Shown here piece after piece: positions 3,692 through 21,320 of a stretch of 37,296 nt of DNA (positions within the stretch are counted from its first letter, which is position 1; the number at the start of each line of letters is the position of its first letter). The stretch lies in IMG/VR virus record IMGVR_UViG_3300025168_000244, positions 1 through 37,296 of that record; one strand, given 5' to 3'. The notes under the pieces are model-generated. The model did no database searches and was not told where the DNA came from. It saw nothing but the letters and a program-made list of their open reading frames with translations. Source of the DNA: a virus. The position numbers were made by a program, and so were the translations under genes.

Positions 3692-5155
3692 TTAATAATA
3701 CGCTTTCACTTTAGCAGAATTTTCTTCATCTTCCCAGTCATCTGTTGGCAGTTGAACGAAATTACCTTGTCTATAGCGCATAAGCGCCTGCGTCATACTA
3801 TCAACCAAATCATCATGTTCCCCATTCGGAAACGCCGCGACCTCTTCTATCAACTCGTCAGAAAAAGTTTCATCGGGGGCCCAAACCATACCAGCCTCAA
3901 ATAAAGGTGATACACTATGAACTCTACTCACCTTATCGTTACCACGGCTCGGTGTAAAGTTTACAACAGGTATTCCCATATTTCTTAATTCCTGCGTCAA
4001 AGGGGTCCCTGAAGCTTTCGCCTCAACAATAACAGTATCTGGTTCCCAAAACTTATAGTTGTCAAGCGCAACTTGCTTTAGCTCCGGAAAGTCCCAACGA
4101 CCTTTCTGACTATCTAACAAAATTAAATTAGGACCCGAACCACCTTCATTGGGATAAAATACCCCCCACGTTGTGATCGCAGAATAGTCAGCCGTTTCTT
4201 TCTTACTAAAAGCAGTATCGTAACTTTGAATCACATATTCTAAATGGGGGACCCGCTCTTTATCCCACAACTTCCACCACTCACGACGAATGATCGCATT
4301 TTCCTCACCCGTAGGATTTTGCTGATACTGCGCGTTCCACTTAGACGGAGGAATTGACGCCTTAACCGCAGTCAGATCATCTAAACTCCAATACTCTGGC
4401 CAGCACGGAGTCCCATCCTCGAAAATTGCAGGTAGCTCAACAACCTCCCATTGATCGGCAAGTGGGTCTTTGGCCATGGCCCGTAGTAATTGGCCCGTCA
4501 TGTCCTTCTCAGACCACCTAGTTTGAACCAATACAATCGAACCGCCCGGCTGTAAACGCTGTCTAGGACCACCTGTGTACCAATCCCAAGCATCCTCAAA
4601 GCCACTGCTGCTCATAGCAGTCTGCTCAGAGTGCGGATCATCAATAATCACTAAATCACCACCACGACCCGCTAAGTTTGAGCCAACACCTACCGCATAG
4701 TACATACCACCTTTGTTCGTGTCCCACCGCCCAGAGGCCTTACTGTCCGCAGCAAGCTTAACTTCCGGGAATATTTCTTTAAATTCGTCACTCTCAATCA
4801 AGTTTTTTGTCTTACGACCAAAGTTTACCGCCAACTCTGTCGTGTGCGTTGCCTGAATAATCTTCATTTTAGAGTTACGGCCCATCATCCATGCCGGAAA
4901 CAAGAAGGATGCAAACTCAGACTTCGTGTGCCGCGGTGCCATGTTGATAATCAGACGCTTTAACTCGCCACGAGCTACACGATCTAACTTCTCAGCAATG
5001 ATTTTATGGTGCCTACCTGCAATGAAATCGGGCCAAACTGTTTTAACAAAAGTTAAAAAATCATCTTGGCACTTCTCGTTCTTCTCAAGCTGCGCAAGCC
5101 GAAGCTCAAGCTTCAGTTTTTTCTCTTCTAACAATACATTTTTTGCCACACTCAT
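3692..5155 (-). CDS. terL: Terminase large subunit (TerL)
   Basis: A 487-residue packaging motor and genome-cutting nuclease. The N-terminal ATPase has a Walker A variant APRHTKSE at residues 73-80 (Thr where most of the family has Gly) and Walker B LVIIDDP at 168-174. The coupling region includes VLVQTRWSEKDM. The C-terminal RNase H-like nuclease shows Asp313 (QSYDTAF), the VEAKASG segment near 380, and HDD at 447-449. Length is usual for the family. An acidic tail ends VKAYY. TerL starts downstream of two palindromes at 5193-5231 and a possible promoter. The small subunit is not adjacent; it lies at 9497-10105. Confidence 0.95.
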   Translation of the reverse strand: MSVAKNVLLEEKKLKLELRLAQLEKNEKCQDDFLTFVKTVWPDFIAGRHHKIIAEKLDRVARGELKRLIINMAPRHTKSEFASFLFPAWMMGRNSKMKIIQATHTTELAVNFGRKTKNLIESDEFKEIFPEVKLAADSKASGRWDTNKGGMYYAVGVGSNLAGRGGDLVIIDDPHSEQTAMSSSGFEDAWDWYTGGPRQRLQPGGSIVLVQTRWSEKDMTGQLLRAMAKDPLADQWEVVELPAIFEDGTPCWPEYWSLDDLTAVKASIPPSKWNAQYQQNPTGEENAIIRREWWKLWDKERVPHLEYVIQSYDTAFSKKETADYSAITTWGVFYPNEGGSGPNLILLDSQKGRWDFPELKQVALDNYKFWEPDTVIVEAKASGTPLTQELRNMGIPVVNFTPSRGNDKVSRVHSVSPLFEAGMVWAPDETFSDELIEEVAAFPNGEHDDLVDSMTQALMRYRQGNFVQLPTDDWEDEENSAKVKAYY

Positions 5156-5192
5156 AGGGGTCCCTATCTAATTTTTCACACGCAGTTTTTAA

Positions 5193-5208
5193 TGTTTCAC
5201 GTGAAACA
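5193..5208. promoter_or_regulatory. parS-like: Perfect parS-like palindrome 1
   Basis: The 16-mer TGTTTCACGTGAAACA is a perfect inverted repeat and matches the bacterial chromosomal parS consensus TGTTNCACGTGAAACA, the ParB/Spo0J binding site, at every position. It lies 38 bases upstream of the TerL start. No parA or parB gene is seen in the window, so a host ParB is the likely partner, if any. An alternative is an operator or RNA hairpin in the TerL leader. Confidence 0.8.
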
Positions 5209-5215
5209 ATCACGA

Positions 5216-5231
5216 TGTTCCACGTGGAACA
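5216..5231. promoter_or_regulatory. parS-like: Perfect parS-like palindrome 2
   Basis: The 16-mer TGTTCCACGTGGAACA is a second perfect palindrome, 23 bp centre-to-centre from the first. It keeps the invariant CACGTG core and differs from the parS consensus at one position, with the symmetry kept. Two such sites in tandem within 39 bp are very unlikely by chance. Confidence 0.75.
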
Positions 5232-5239
5232 TAACACGT

Positions 5240-5269
5240 ATTATATGCGATTTTAAGCACAAATATAAG
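5240..5269 (-). promoter_or_regulatory. Possible TerL-operon promoter
   Basis: A TATAAT hexamer on the minus strand at 5245-5240 has a weak -35 (CTTATA, 5269-5264) with an 18-bp spacer. A transcript from here would start near 5233, so both parS-like palindromes would lie just downstream of the start site, in the TerL leader. The -10 is strong and the -35 is poor. Confidence 0.35.
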
Positions 5270-5314
5270 ACAGTTAATCTTATTTCAAATAACTGATGAA
5301 TATTTGAGAGAAAC

Positions 5315-5645
5315 ATGGCCCTAGCCTCCGCAGGCAGCCGCGGGGGCCGGGGTCGCTGGATCGAGTCGAATTGGCCACGATCTGCGCCATTTGACCCGAT
5401 AGCCGGGGGACCCTGCGCAATGTGCGCGGCCCTCTGCCCATCGGCAGCGGGCACCGTTCCGGGGATAACTGGCACCGGCCACGCTGGACCGGGCGCGGGT
5501 TAACTTTCACCGGCTGGGGTCCGGGGTTCGGGAACCGGGAACCGGGGCCAACTGCCACCGGCTGGGGTCCAGTAGCCCGCCGCCATCGGCCCGGTAAGTT
5601 TGGGCAGGGGTGCAAGGGGCGCGGCCCGCCGTATTTAACTGTTTA
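5315..5645. other. GC-rich non-coding island with short repeats
   Basis: About 330 bp of markedly higher GC than the flanks. It has three versions of a motif AACT(GG/TT/GC)CACCGGC (near 5466, 5502 and 5549), two copies of CACCGGCTGGGGTCC, and GGGAACC repeats near 5530. Open frames exist on both strands but are low-complexity, lack good ribosome sites and overlap one another, so I do not call a gene. Its place between the TerL operon and the early genes would suit a packaging start (pac/cos) or an origin; neither is shown. Confidence 0.6.
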
Positions 5646-5655
5646 ACACGGACAT

Positions 5656-5680
5656 AAAAAAGCCCGCACGTTGGCGGGCT
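5656..5680 (-). terminator. Rho-independent terminator T1
   Basis: On the minus strand AGCCCGC and GCGGGCT form a 7-bp GC-rich stem with a 6-base loop, followed by a run of T. It ends the 6225-5702 gene pair and belongs to a set of four near-identical terminators (with those near 6312, 7095 and 7605). Confidence 0.9.
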
Positions 5681-5701
5681 TAGTGGGGCACTGGGGCGGC
5701 T

Positions 5702-9141: not shown

Positions 9142-9621
9142 CTATGGGATTGTATGCGATGTTGTGGGACAGATCAAGGTGAAAACTTCGGTCCAGTCTA
9201 TTTTGCCTGCTATGTGGTGGTAAGGTTCAACCTTCAAACCCTCCATCTTTAAATCTACCGCATCAGCACCTTTGAACAAAAACATTTGTTCGGGTTGGTT
9301 TTTAGTCTTATGTTTTTTAACCATGACCCAGACGCTGCCGTGCCCATGATTAGTTAGCCAAGCGACTTGGTGCGGTCGCAAGTCTACCGCATTGCCTGCG
9401 GTCGCTTTCAATTCTACAAAGTGAAAATTGCCAAACTCATCTAACAAAACTACGTCAGGCACTCCGGGCATAGCCCACGTTTCTAACCGGGTTGCTTTAA
9501 TGTTGCGTCCGGTTTTCTCCATCCCCGTCTTCATCTGCCTCCAAAAGTCGGCCTCTCGCTTTGTCGCGGTTTTGGGGATTGCTCTCTCTTTCGGGAGTAA
9601 CGTCGATAGTAATCGGGGCAT
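9142..9621 (-). CDS. VRR-NUC-like endonuclease (PD-(D/E)xK fold)
   Basis: A 159-residue nuclease candidate. The key signature is PGVPDVV (Asp56) followed by FVELKA (Glu70, Lys72), the D-ExK core of VRR-NUC / Holliday-junction-resolvase-like enzymes. Glu23 in KREADFWRQM would supply the N-terminal acid, and LRPHQVAWL matches the usual post-core helix. Likely roles are recombination, repair or host DNA breakdown. It overlaps the small terminase gene by 125 bases in another frame. AAGGAG lies 13 bases before the ATG, a long spacing, but the N-terminal helix with Glu23 supports this start. Confidence 0.82.
   Translation of the reverse strand: MPRLLSTLLPKERAIPKTATKREADFWRQMKTGMEKTGRNIKATRLETWAMPGVPDVVLLDEFGNFHFVELKATAGNAVDLRPHQVAWLTNHGHGSVWVMVKKHKTKNQPEQMFLFKGADAVDLKMEGLKVEPYHHIAGKIDWTEVFTLICPTTSHTIP
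9149..9177 (-). promoter_or_regulatory. Promoter for the Arg-rich small gene, P9.15
   Basis: TTGATC (9177-9172), 17-bp spacer, TACAAT (9154-9149). Plus-strand ATGGGAT at 9144 and ATGCGAT at 9154 have a 10-bp period and the same position relative to the -10 as at P7.1 and P7.6. It lies inside the 3' end of the nuclease gene. Confidence 0.7.
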
Positions 9622-10105
9622 AGCTTTGTTTTAACTCCTTGAGTGCTTTTAAGACTTCATCTTTATTCATGCCGTCGATGCTGCCTGTTCTAATTTCACT
9701 CTTACTTACATAAATGTCACCTTGCGCTTGCCCTCGCCGGTACTCTGCTTGAACGGCGGCACTGTATGCCCCGTTATTTAGTGCCATATCCCGGATCGTT
9801 TGCAGGTCCCTTAGATGGCGTTGGTAGTTAACCCCAAACTTTTCGTCCAGTTCTGCACGATAAGCTTGGATAGCGTGTACTACGTGCGGGCTGATGTTTG
9901 GGTTTGTTAGCTCATACGCTCTAGTGTGAGCGGAGCTTACGGGGTAACCAGCATTGATCGCGGCCTCCCTCATAGTAATTTGCCCATCTTTCGAAACCAG
10001 TTCTTTTACAAACAGTTCCTGCTTGCGGGTCAAAGGTTGTGCTTTAGTTGCTCTAGGCCTGCCCGCTTTCTTTTTAGCGACAGTCTTAATAGATTTGCTT
10101 GTCAT
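9497..10105 (-). CDS. terS: Terminase small subunit (Terminase_2-like)
   Basis: A 202-residue protein likely to recognise phage DNA and load TerL. A basic N-terminus with an AT-hook-like GRPR (residues about 15-20) precedes LTRKQELFVKELV at about 25-37. The helix-turn-helix MREAAINAGYPVSSAHTRAYEL follows at about 44-66. This is the order seen in Terminase_2/XtmA-type small subunits. A helical region for oligomerisation (about 80-130) and a charged tail follow. It lies 4.3 kb from TerL, among early genes, next to an iteron-like region. The call rests on the N-terminal motifs; another HTH role cannot be ruled out. Confidence 0.72.
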   Translation of the reverse strand: MTSKSIKTVAKKKAGRPRATKAQPLTRKQELFVKELVSKDGQITMREAAINAGYPVSSAHTRAYELTNPNISPHVVHAIQAYRAELDEKFGVNYQRHLRDLQTIRDMALNNGAYSAAVQAEYRRGQAQGDIYVSKSEIRTGSIDGMNKDEVLKALKELKQSYAPITIDVTPERESNPQNRDKARGRLLEADEDGDGENRTQH

Positions 10106-19865: not shown

Positions 19866-21320
19866 ATGAAAAGCTACGAGTACGAAACTCAACCATACGA
19901 TCACCAACGCCAAGCGTTTGAAGAATCGTGGGCCGCGGATTACTACGCGTTGCTTATGGAAATGGGCACTGGTAAATCTAAAGTAGCTATAGATACCATG
20001 GGTGCTTTGTTCGAGTCCGGGCAGGTAAAGGCAGCACTCATTGTAGCGCCTAAAGGTGTTTATGATAACTGGGTAAAGGGTGAAATACCGATTCATTTAC
20101 CTAAACGCATACCTAGAAAGGTAATGAGGTGGTTGCCTACCAAGTCAAAGAAGTATGACGGTGAGTTAAAAGACTTTATCGTAGACTTTGATAAGACCTT
20201 TCTTAAAGTGTTTGTCATGAATGTAGAGGCGTTTAGTTCACCTAGAGGTACGGAAGCGGCAATAGCCTATTTGTATCAAAATCCTGACAACATTGTTATT
20301 GTTGACGAATCAACTACAATTAAAAACAGGAAGGCTGCGAGGACGAAGAATATAATTGCTTTACAGGAACGGGCTAAATACCGCCGGATATTGACCGGCT
20401 CCCCTATAACCAAGAGCCCTATGGACCTGTTTAGTCAATGTAACTTCCTTGCCGAAAAAGCATTAGGCTTTAATAGTTATTTTGCTTTCCAAGCGCGGTA
20501 CGCTAACGTTCAGAAACGGATGATGGGTCACCGCAGCTTCCAACAGATTGTGGGCTATCGTCGATTAGATGAACTTTCTGAAAAGTTAGACGGCTTTAGT
20601 AGCCGAGTTCTAAAAGTCGATTGCCTTGATCTTCCTCCCAAAGTTTATTTACGCCGGGAGGTTCCGCTCACACTAGAGCAAGCTAAACTATATTTGCAGA
20701 TGAAGAAACTTGCGTTAGCCAAGCTAGAGAGCGGCGAGCTAGTTACTACTGCTAGTGTTTTGACACAGATAATGAGATTACAACAGATTTGCTGCGGACA
20801 TTTGCAGCCAGACGAGGGCGAGATACAGACGGTTAAGAGCAACCGCTTGAACGAATTACTCGACCTTACTGACGAGTTTCAGGGAAAAGCCATCATTTGG
20901 GCGACGTATACACACGACATCCAACAGTTGGCTTCTGCCCTGCGCGACCGGTTCGGGCCCGAATCGGTCGCAACCTATTATGGTGCTACTCCACAAGATG
21001 AAAGGCAAGAGATTGTTGAACAGTTTCAGGACCCGGATTCACCTTTACGGTTCTTTGTTGGACAGCCTAAAACTGGTGGGTACGGTATTACATTAACTGA
21101 AGCTACTACCGTGATTTATTACAGTAATAGCTATGACCTAGAAATAAGGCTACAGTCTGAAGATAGAGCGCATCGTATTGGTCAAAAGAACAAAGTTACT
21201 TATATAGACTTAGTGTCACCGGATACGATAGACGAAAAGATACTACAAGCCTTGCGCAATAAGATAGATATTGCAGGAAAAGTGTTGGGTGAAGACGTTA
21301 AAGGTTGGTTAACTTACTGA
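19866..21320 (+). CDS. SNF2-type SF2 helicase/translocase
   Basis: A 484-residue helicase. The Q-motif-like YDHQRQAFE (11-19) and Walker A MEMGTGKSK (31-39) are clear. Motif II is DEST (147-150) rather than DEGH. Motif III is ILTGSPITKSP, motif IV-like is IIWATYTHDIQQL, motif V is GGYGITLTEATTVIYY and motif VI is QSEDRAHRIGQKNKV. Phage members of this group act in replication or recombination, possibly by moving proteins on DNA. AGGGG lies about 7 bases before the ATG. It is the only large plus-strand gene, and its end overlaps the convergent gene by 7 bases. Confidence 0.93.
   Translation: MKSYEYETQPYDHQRQAFEESWAADYYALLMEMGTGKSKVAIDTMGALFESGQVKAALIVAPKGVYDNWVKGEIPIHLPKRIPRKVMRWLPTKSKKYDGELKDFIVDFDKTFLKVFVMNVEAFSSPRGTEAAIAYLYQNPDNIVIVDESTTIKNRKAARTKNIIALQERAKYRRILTGSPITKSPMDLFSQCNFLAEKALGFNSYFAFQARYANVQKRMMGHRSFQQIVGYRRLDELSEKLDGFSSRVLKVDCLDLPPKVYLRREVPLTLEQAKLYLQMKKLALAKLESGELVTTASVLTQIMRLQQICCGHLQPDEGEIQTVKSNRLNELLDLTDEFQGKAIIWATYTHDIQQLASALRDRFGPESVATYYGATPQDERQEIVEQFQDPDSPLRFFVGQPKTGGYGITLTEATTVIYYSNSYDLEIRLQSEDRAHRIGQKNKVTYIDLVSPDTIDEKILQALRNKIDIAGKVLGEDVKGWLTY

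Follow-up and report, generated by a model that had tools for sequence, protein, structure and literature searches.

Host-type parS palindromes upstream of terL in an aquatic phage lineage and their possible use of host ParB

Phage-plasmids (P1, N15 and the like) encode their own ParA and ParB together with a private parS. The parS of the chromosomal ParABS system (ParB/Spo0J) is a 16-bp palindrome, whose consensus, including a degenerate position, appears as TGTTNCACGTGAAACA in PMC7022226; the parS2 and parS3 sites of Pseudomonas aeruginosa have the TCC form, according to PMC4368675. Entrapment of the phi29 genome in the spore via host Spo0J links a virulent phage to this protein family (Meijer et al. 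2005, as cited in PMC9437464), and the citing paper describes alphaproteobacterial phages that carry CtrA sites and so co-opt a host regulator. Mycobacteriophages of cluster O contain more than 30 copies of a different palindrome, whose function is given as unknown in PMC4351075.

We analysed IMG/VR virus record IMGVR_UViG_3300025168_000244, the whole 37,296 bp of which are called the window here. It is judged to be a fragment because relatives span 54–56 kb. Two palindromes upstream of its terminase gene resemble chromosomal parS in the 16-bp sequence, in the degenerate position and in the kinds of variants (TTT/AAA and TCC/GGA), but they lie on a virus genome in which no member of the ParB or ParA families was found, near terL instead of a chromosome origin, and one phage lineage has the site in frame within a gene. 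As with phi29, the DNA of a virulent phage would have its fate tied to a host ParB homologue, the window having parS sites but no ParB; the phi29 case, however, is bound to Bacillus sporulation, whereas the present phages are aquatic, belong to another family and have the site in a different context. With phage-plasmids the window shares a centromere-like site on a phage genome, yet this site belongs to the host type, and searches found no ParA, ParB or tyrosine integrase. CtrA-site phages likewise present binding sites for a host cell-cycle protein, although CtrA is a transcription factor and ParB a CTP-dependent DNA clamp. If these palindromes do recruit host ParB, a protein known for bacterial chromosome segregation would also be a widely used viral host factor.

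The palindrome pair and the terL region

The palindromes stand in tandem at 5193–5208 (site 1, promoter-distal, TGTTTCACGTGAAACA) and 5216–5231 (site 2, promoter-proximal, TGTTCCACGTGGAACA), with a start-to-start distance of 23 bp, and neither is assigned a strand. A first-pass annotation had placed two parS-type palindromes here and called one an exact consensus match and the other a symmetric one-change variant. Both descriptions proved correct: site 1 is the exact consensus, and site 2, the form known as P. aeruginosa parS2/parS3, departs from it by one base per half-site, or two mismatches in total. Each is thus the palindrome TGTTNCACGTGAAACA or a symmetric variant of it with the CACGTG core intact. 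Allowing up to two mismatches, they are the sole parS matches in the window; with up to three mismatches there are three matches against 0.20 expected from shuffles, and three were reached in 0 of 100 shuffles. Chance occurrence was rejected on these shuffles, on backward controls in IMG/VR and GenBank and on controls in the TerL samples (below).

The first gene after the pair is TerL, the terminase large subunit (3692–5155, minus strand; phrog_38, E 2.4e-112; PF17289), and the near ends of the two sites precede the first base of its ATG by 38 and 61 positions. The terminase small subunit (9497–10105, minus strand; phrog_51, E 2.4e-10) lies ~4.3 kb upstream of TerL. Along the terL strand the order is a stem-loop (5681–5660), a GC-rich non-coding block, a promoter-like element (5277–5250), the TCC site, the TTT site and terL. 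The stem-loop (5660–5681, minus strand), terminator-like and with a T run, stands between the terL promoter region and the small genes that precede it; three terminator-like sites occur in the region against 0.8 expected, one of them being the TCC parS palindrome itself. Directly upstream of the pair, the promoter-like element TTAACT-16-TAAAAT (5250–5277, minus strand) is a single find against 0.3 expected, and the presumed terL leader, or 5' UTR (5156–5249, minus strand), which we infer from this layout, contains both sites.

Of the 73 relatives whose upstream sequence is 200 bp or longer, 50 keep the promoter-like element as TTAACTG...ATCGCATA, the motif having been drawn from the same loci. 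The earlier claim that the sites lie just after a candidate TerL promoter agrees with the window. Among the relatives closest to the window (sample A, the best 80 of 598 TerL relatives listed, at least 87% identity), the first site begins 0 (13 loci), 12 (30), 13 (5), 24 (3) or 25 (1) nt past the conserved ATCGCATA. A spacing of 0, 12–13 or 24–25 nt holds in all 52 of the 52 sample A loci having both elements, many of which are near copies. At 0–25 nt after ATCGCATA, the first site is therefore placed at the start of the presumed terL transcript.

The GC-rich non-coding block that precedes the terL promoter (5290–5650 in the window) changes fast and occupies the same place in sample A, with a mean GC of 0.62 at −450 to −150 across the 57 loci with enough flank. 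In 55 of 73 loci it ends in a conserved motif resembling CATGTTTCTC, the motif being derived from those very loci, and three imperfect repeats of 26 nt are present in the copy of the window. The block is possibly a packaging site or an origin. Elsewhere in the window an SNF2-type helicase is encoded on the plus strand (19866–21320), the remaining family-matched proteins all being on the minus strand. By TerL comparison only, the nearest isolates are 023Pt_psg01 and Pelagibacter phage HTVC027P, both at 64% identity.

Recurrence, placement and codon use of the site

Two further samples were taken alongside sample A: the best 80 of 600 relatives of the L225 TerL (sample B) and the best 80 of 224 relatives of the L192 TerL (sample C). 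Exact parS-type sites, counted in the form TGTTYCACGTGRAACA, occurred in 57 of 80 loci in A, 32 of 80 in B and 49 of 80 in C, fractions that may run somewhat high because all three query loci carry sites themselves; the backward-read pattern occurred in 0 of 80 in each. Two exact sites were present in 20 loci of A and 14 of C, and on the terL strand the TCC form came first in 17 of the A pairs and the TTT form in three (L035, L052 and L053). The perfect 16-bp palindrome TGTTTCACGTGAAACA was the commonest in every sample (49, 32 and 29 loci in A, B and C), ahead of non-parS runners-up found in 3, 8 and 22 loci, so that in C it leads by little. In IMG/VR, 44 stretches contain the two window sites side by side, with a 5–9 bp spacer and in either order. 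A distant blastn search with the intergenic region returned short matches only, the parS-bearing ones of which prompted 30-nt searches.

Conservation is concentrated on the palindrome. In the leader site nearest terL in sample A (30 distinct 40-mers), 11 of 16 positions are invariant and three vary once. Positions 5 and 12 show only T/C and A/G variation and correspond to the degenerate position of the published consensus. In the flanks 20 of 24 positions fall below 0.6 bit. Candidates for this comparison were picked with up to three mismatches, so some conservation is built in; a mismatch outside positions 5 and 12 occurred in 3 of 78 instances. The site is nonetheless dispensable, because the available stretch of 102 of the 240 sampled relatives has none (two of the 23 siteless sample A loci have less than 110 bp of upstream sequence) and because decayed copies exist (L064, L062 and L071, with L352 one base off at an in-frame place).

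The first-pass annotation had named absence of both palindromes from all relatives as an outcome that would refute it; parS-type sites instead recur in all three samples, and their place differs by lineage. Five classes of place were distinguished, namely the terL leader (mainly A, with a few in C), 121 bp upstream (B), far upstream (A, B and C), ~2 kb downstream (C) and far downstream (C). The far-upstream sites include some at 3 kb, and those ~2 kb downstream stand in frame within a gene. A TerL tree was built from 87 clusters (96% identity), 50 of which had a site in one member or more; explaining presence and absence took a minimum of 18 changes, of which branches with strong support forced 12, and the place classes required 24, on what is a quick tree with long branches flagged and rows that differ in their amount of flank.

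Whole-record searches covered 22 viral records 44 kb or longer. Exact sites were found in 12 of them, giving 18 sites at one to three per record, and none in the other 10, which include all five GenBank phages. Seventeen of the 18 lie within 4 kb of the TerL start. The exception (position 40272 of G006, a 55.7-kb relative) is ~5.7 kb downstream; it is a third site, TGTTCCACGTGAAACA, outside the terL leader, and its homologous point falls just off the left end of the window. HTVC027P has one site with one mismatch, close to the gene of its terminase small subunit and between the convergent genes gp31 and gp32. In three relatives the GC skew does not turn at the sites as it would at an origin.

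Sample C offers a comparison between the site and the peptide that it encodes. Here 50 of 63 sites lie 1.47–3 kb downstream of the TerL start, and with respect to long open frames on the terL strand 51 of the 63 fall in one frame, four in another and eight in none. The peptide encoded by the 51 in-frame sites is V[SP]R[EG]T, which in most cases belongs to a proline-rich part of the long gene that comes next. Open frames of 150 codons or more on the terL strand yielded 52 such peptides, of which 51 were spelled with the parS codons, L352 being the exception. The proportion was 14 of 15 among 96%-cluster representatives and 55 of 58 on both strands, where some sites may be counted twice. Several neighbouring peptides of the same loci vary freely, with 11 spellings in 21 cases for LPPSL, 8 in 16 for EPLPP, 9 in 18 for KGFLG, 13 in 28 for RVKG[FL] and 4 in 7 for TPAEE. 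Others vary little (QLETK, 3 spellings in 9 cases; LPASL, 2 in 9; GSPQL, 2 in 4), and the contrast is clear, though not uniform. Since the place shifts by lineage and the in-frame peptide keeps its parS codons while several neighbours vary, selection acts on the DNA site and not on the peptide, an RNA hairpin or a single promoter; the palindrome is conserved as a DNA site regardless of reading frame and promoter.

The loci concerned (L341–L419) hold the in-frame parS with frozen codons at ~+1.9 to +2.1 kb from the TerL start, as a binding site imposed on coding sequence. In six of the sampled loci (L362, L363, L371, L391, L397 and L400) another part of the gene contains a further in-frame site, which suggests fresh gains.

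The same sequence is not confined to TerL relatives. The exact 16-mer occurs in at least 120 IMG/VR stretches and the same palindrome read backwards in one; among 50,697 GenBank phage records the exact TTT form occurs in 286 and the exact TCC form in 58, with both backward controls at 0. Carriers of the TTT form belong to unrelated groups, including Listeria, Gordonia and Arthrobacter phages, phi29-like phages, inoviruses and Microviridae. Pseudomonas phages account for 17 of the 58 TCC records, matching the parS form of Pseudomonas given in PMC4368675 and PMC7022226. Klebsiella phages account for a further 10, although Enterobacteriaceae are without chromosomal par genes according to PMC7022226; the annotated rows among these 10 fall within genes, stem mostly from one jumbo-phage lineage and may be chance occurrences. 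For the TTT form, no enterobacterial name stands among the ten commonest phage names, nor is there an enterobacterial host name in 107 distinct rows of the 286 (60 best and 60 spread, 13 common to both), some of which name no host. Mycobacterium phages are outside the ten commonest names even though their hosts have ParB.

Probable host ParB recruitment and the rival explanations

The first-pass annotation saw no parA or parB beside the sites, and profile searches bear this out for ParB: the window has no ParB_N domain match. ParB_N (PF02195) was found in 0 of 24 viral records, among them three relatives of 54–56 kb, one complete, and in 4 of 4 MAG bins. HTH_ParB (PF17762) and the ParA-type AAA_31 (PF13614) each matched in 0 of 18 records, the latter set including the window and the complete relative G007, a 55.7-kb genome taken as complete because of its 127-bp terminal repeat. 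With no ParB_N, HTH_ParB or AAA_31 match in the phage records searched, the locus does not qualify as an autonomous ParABS cassette. Among 117 of the 118 IMG/VR loci with exact parS (L166 was omitted, its contig being identical to that of L038), ParB_N passed the cut-off in three and reached E ≤0.01 in five.

Three other accounts of the records were considered and set aside. Lysogeny was rejected on finding a tyrosine integrase (PF00589) in 0 of 15 records. Contamination of the viral contigs with host DNA was rejected for the phage family because the sites adjoin a phage terL; few parS records have ParB_N. Five MAG bins hold relatives (one Rhodobacteraceae, three Verrucomicrobia-type and one Rhodospirillales), three of them with parS upstream of TerL (L131, L133 and L134), and host assignment from these bins was dropped, the binning of phage contigs being unreliable. 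As a separate observation, the 116,662-bp IMG/VR record L224 packs twelve exact parS sites into 5 kb, shows no match to ParB_N, and may stem from the origin region of a bacterial chromosome instead of a virus.

We consider it highly probable, on comparative sequence grounds, that the window palindromes are parS sites that recruit host chromosomal ParB to the phage genome. The phage most likely borrows the host protein because no gene for a protein reading this tag was found in the phage. Recruitment of host ParB would account for the exact consensus, the limited variation, the free placement, the missing phage reader and the recurrence in unrelated phages. The borrowing proposed in the first-pass annotation is accordingly the best-supported reading. 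Counting against it are the many relatives without a site, the decayed copies, the isolates searched whole that lack an exact one, the TCC form in Klebsiella phages and the place of Mycobacterium phages outside the commonest names.

In one rival reading the sites are an operator, and a protein of the phage itself reads the same palindrome to repress or activate the late (terL) operon without host ParB; the fixed spacing after ATCGCATA in the 52 sample A loci is the classical place for a repressor. We nevertheless regard a phage operator as quite unlikely: in relatives the same 16-mer sits 3 kb upstream, within a coding gene 2 kb downstream or, with one mismatch, where two convergent genes meet; it is also present in unrelated phages as small as 5–18 kb; its variation falls almost wholly at the position where chromosomal parS varies; and 18 records contained no ParB-like HTH. 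The palindromes might instead act in the transcript, forming hairpins or pairing together in the terL leader as an attenuator, terminator or stabiliser. The leader does fold better than shuffles (z −3.55), with the palindromes paired with each other, and one palindrome scores as terminator-like; such folding, however, is expected of any perfect DNA palindrome, and Rfam gave no match in the window. In 24 of 172 sites (1 of 77 in A and 23 of 63 in C) the terL strand reads TGTTCCACGTGAAACA, in which a C–A mismatch breaks the stem, while in sample A the central ACGT, the would-be loop, is invariant or nearly so, the opposite of a kept stem with a varying loop. Many lineages have a single site, and others have it in coding frames with frozen codons. 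A role of the sites purely as RNA hairpins, which the first-pass annotation had listed among refuting outcomes, is contradicted by the codon-embedded and stem-breaking sites, and we regard an RNA element as exceedingly improbable.

The proximity of 17 of the 18 sites in the 12 long records to the TerL start would also suit a packaging (pac/cos) site or a site recognised by TerL or TerS. Yet the place moves by kilobases among relatives, close relatives keep TerL without the site, and phages that package their DNA in unrelated ways (Microviridae, inoviruses and phi29-like phages) have the 16-mer too, which makes this reading most unlikely. The annotation had further proposed a decoy for host ParB; the phage sites would then titrate the protein and disturb host chromosome segregation or division. 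Phage replication would multiply the number of sites, and parS would be the right bait. An array for titration, however, is expected to have many sites, and this option is not favoured because each of the 12 site-bearing long records has merely one to three exact ones; it also leaves the clustering near terL and the promoter spacing unexplained. We hold a decoy to be very unlikely.

Recruitment of host ParB could proceed as follows. After injection, host ParB dimers would bind the phage parS sites, and the bound ParB would close into CTP-dependent sliding clamps and spread across the terminase region. The phage genome would then be handled as a partition complex, with host ParA setting its position, host SMC being loaded onto it, or both. 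In the lineage of the window, ParB would probably also keep the packaging operon from being transcribed until replication of the phage has diluted the protein. In an engineered lambda-parS imaging system, the marking of injected phage genomes by ParB within ten minutes is routine, as described in PMC13190303.

Given recruitment of ParB, the chances are about even that its use is positioning or SMC loading. Gating of the late operon is a possible use, though we advance it tentatively, and titration or some other use seems rather unlikely. A ParB gate on terL, raised in the annotation as a switch for TerL, is plausible for the lineage of the window, where the first site follows the promoter element by 0–25 nt and where this version fits best; other lineages have the site in coding sequence, 3 kb away or, in HTVC027P with one mismatch, between convergent genes. 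Because places vary in this way, the gate cannot be a function common to all lineages unless clamps act over kilobases. Bacterial precedents point both ways: at parS3 and parS4 of P. aeruginosa, ParB represses at promoter-near sites, and in B. subtilis genes beside Spo0J sites are unchanged upon loss of Spo0J (both reported in PMC7022226). A more speculative and, in our view, doubtful extension is that unrelated phages convergently gained host-type parS to load a ParB clamp, which here would serve as a copy counter for the packaging operon. While few genomes are present after infection, they would be covered by ParB and terL would be silent; replication would dilute ParB and open the packaging genes.

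Isolates with the site

Among the titles, abstract openings and text passages covered by a search of the literature, none describes parS without parB in these phages. Term searches of two papers on HTVC023P-type and related phages (PMC9599517 and PMC10149686) gave no mention of 'parS' or 'ParB', and PMC12753301 has no mention of 'parB', 'parA' or 'partition'. What a phage would gain from host ParB, be it positioning, SMC loading or gene timing, becomes directly testable through three genetic handles: named exact-site isolates on laboratory hosts, close relatives without sites, and the lineage in which codon choice betrays selection.

Among 14 named phages with a parS-type site, 13 have one of the two symmetric forms and Arthrobacter phage Atuin has the mixed form TGTTTCACGTGGAACA. 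The phi29-like phages B103 and Voltaire have exact parS sites and no ParB_N. Further isolates that combine an exact site with a laboratory host are Goe1 (B. subtilis), vB_PpuM-Amme-3 (P. putida KT2440) and DSS3P8 (Ruegeria pomeroyi DSS-3). ParB_N was found in one of the 14, Microbacterium phage Quhwah, whose parS lies within a gene annotated as a DNA binding protein and whose ParB_N is elsewhere (49574–49831); Quhwah may be a contrasting case with its own reader.

Exact sites also occur in very small genomes. Bajarodino virus 6, an inovirus and thus a tiny ssDNA phage, has three, and Microviridae rows likewise have exact sites. Vibrio phage phi 3 has an exact parS (2934–2949) that separates the A1 gene from the A2 gene within its long terminal repeat, a stretch that we take, by the example of phage T5, to be the first DNA to enter the cell.
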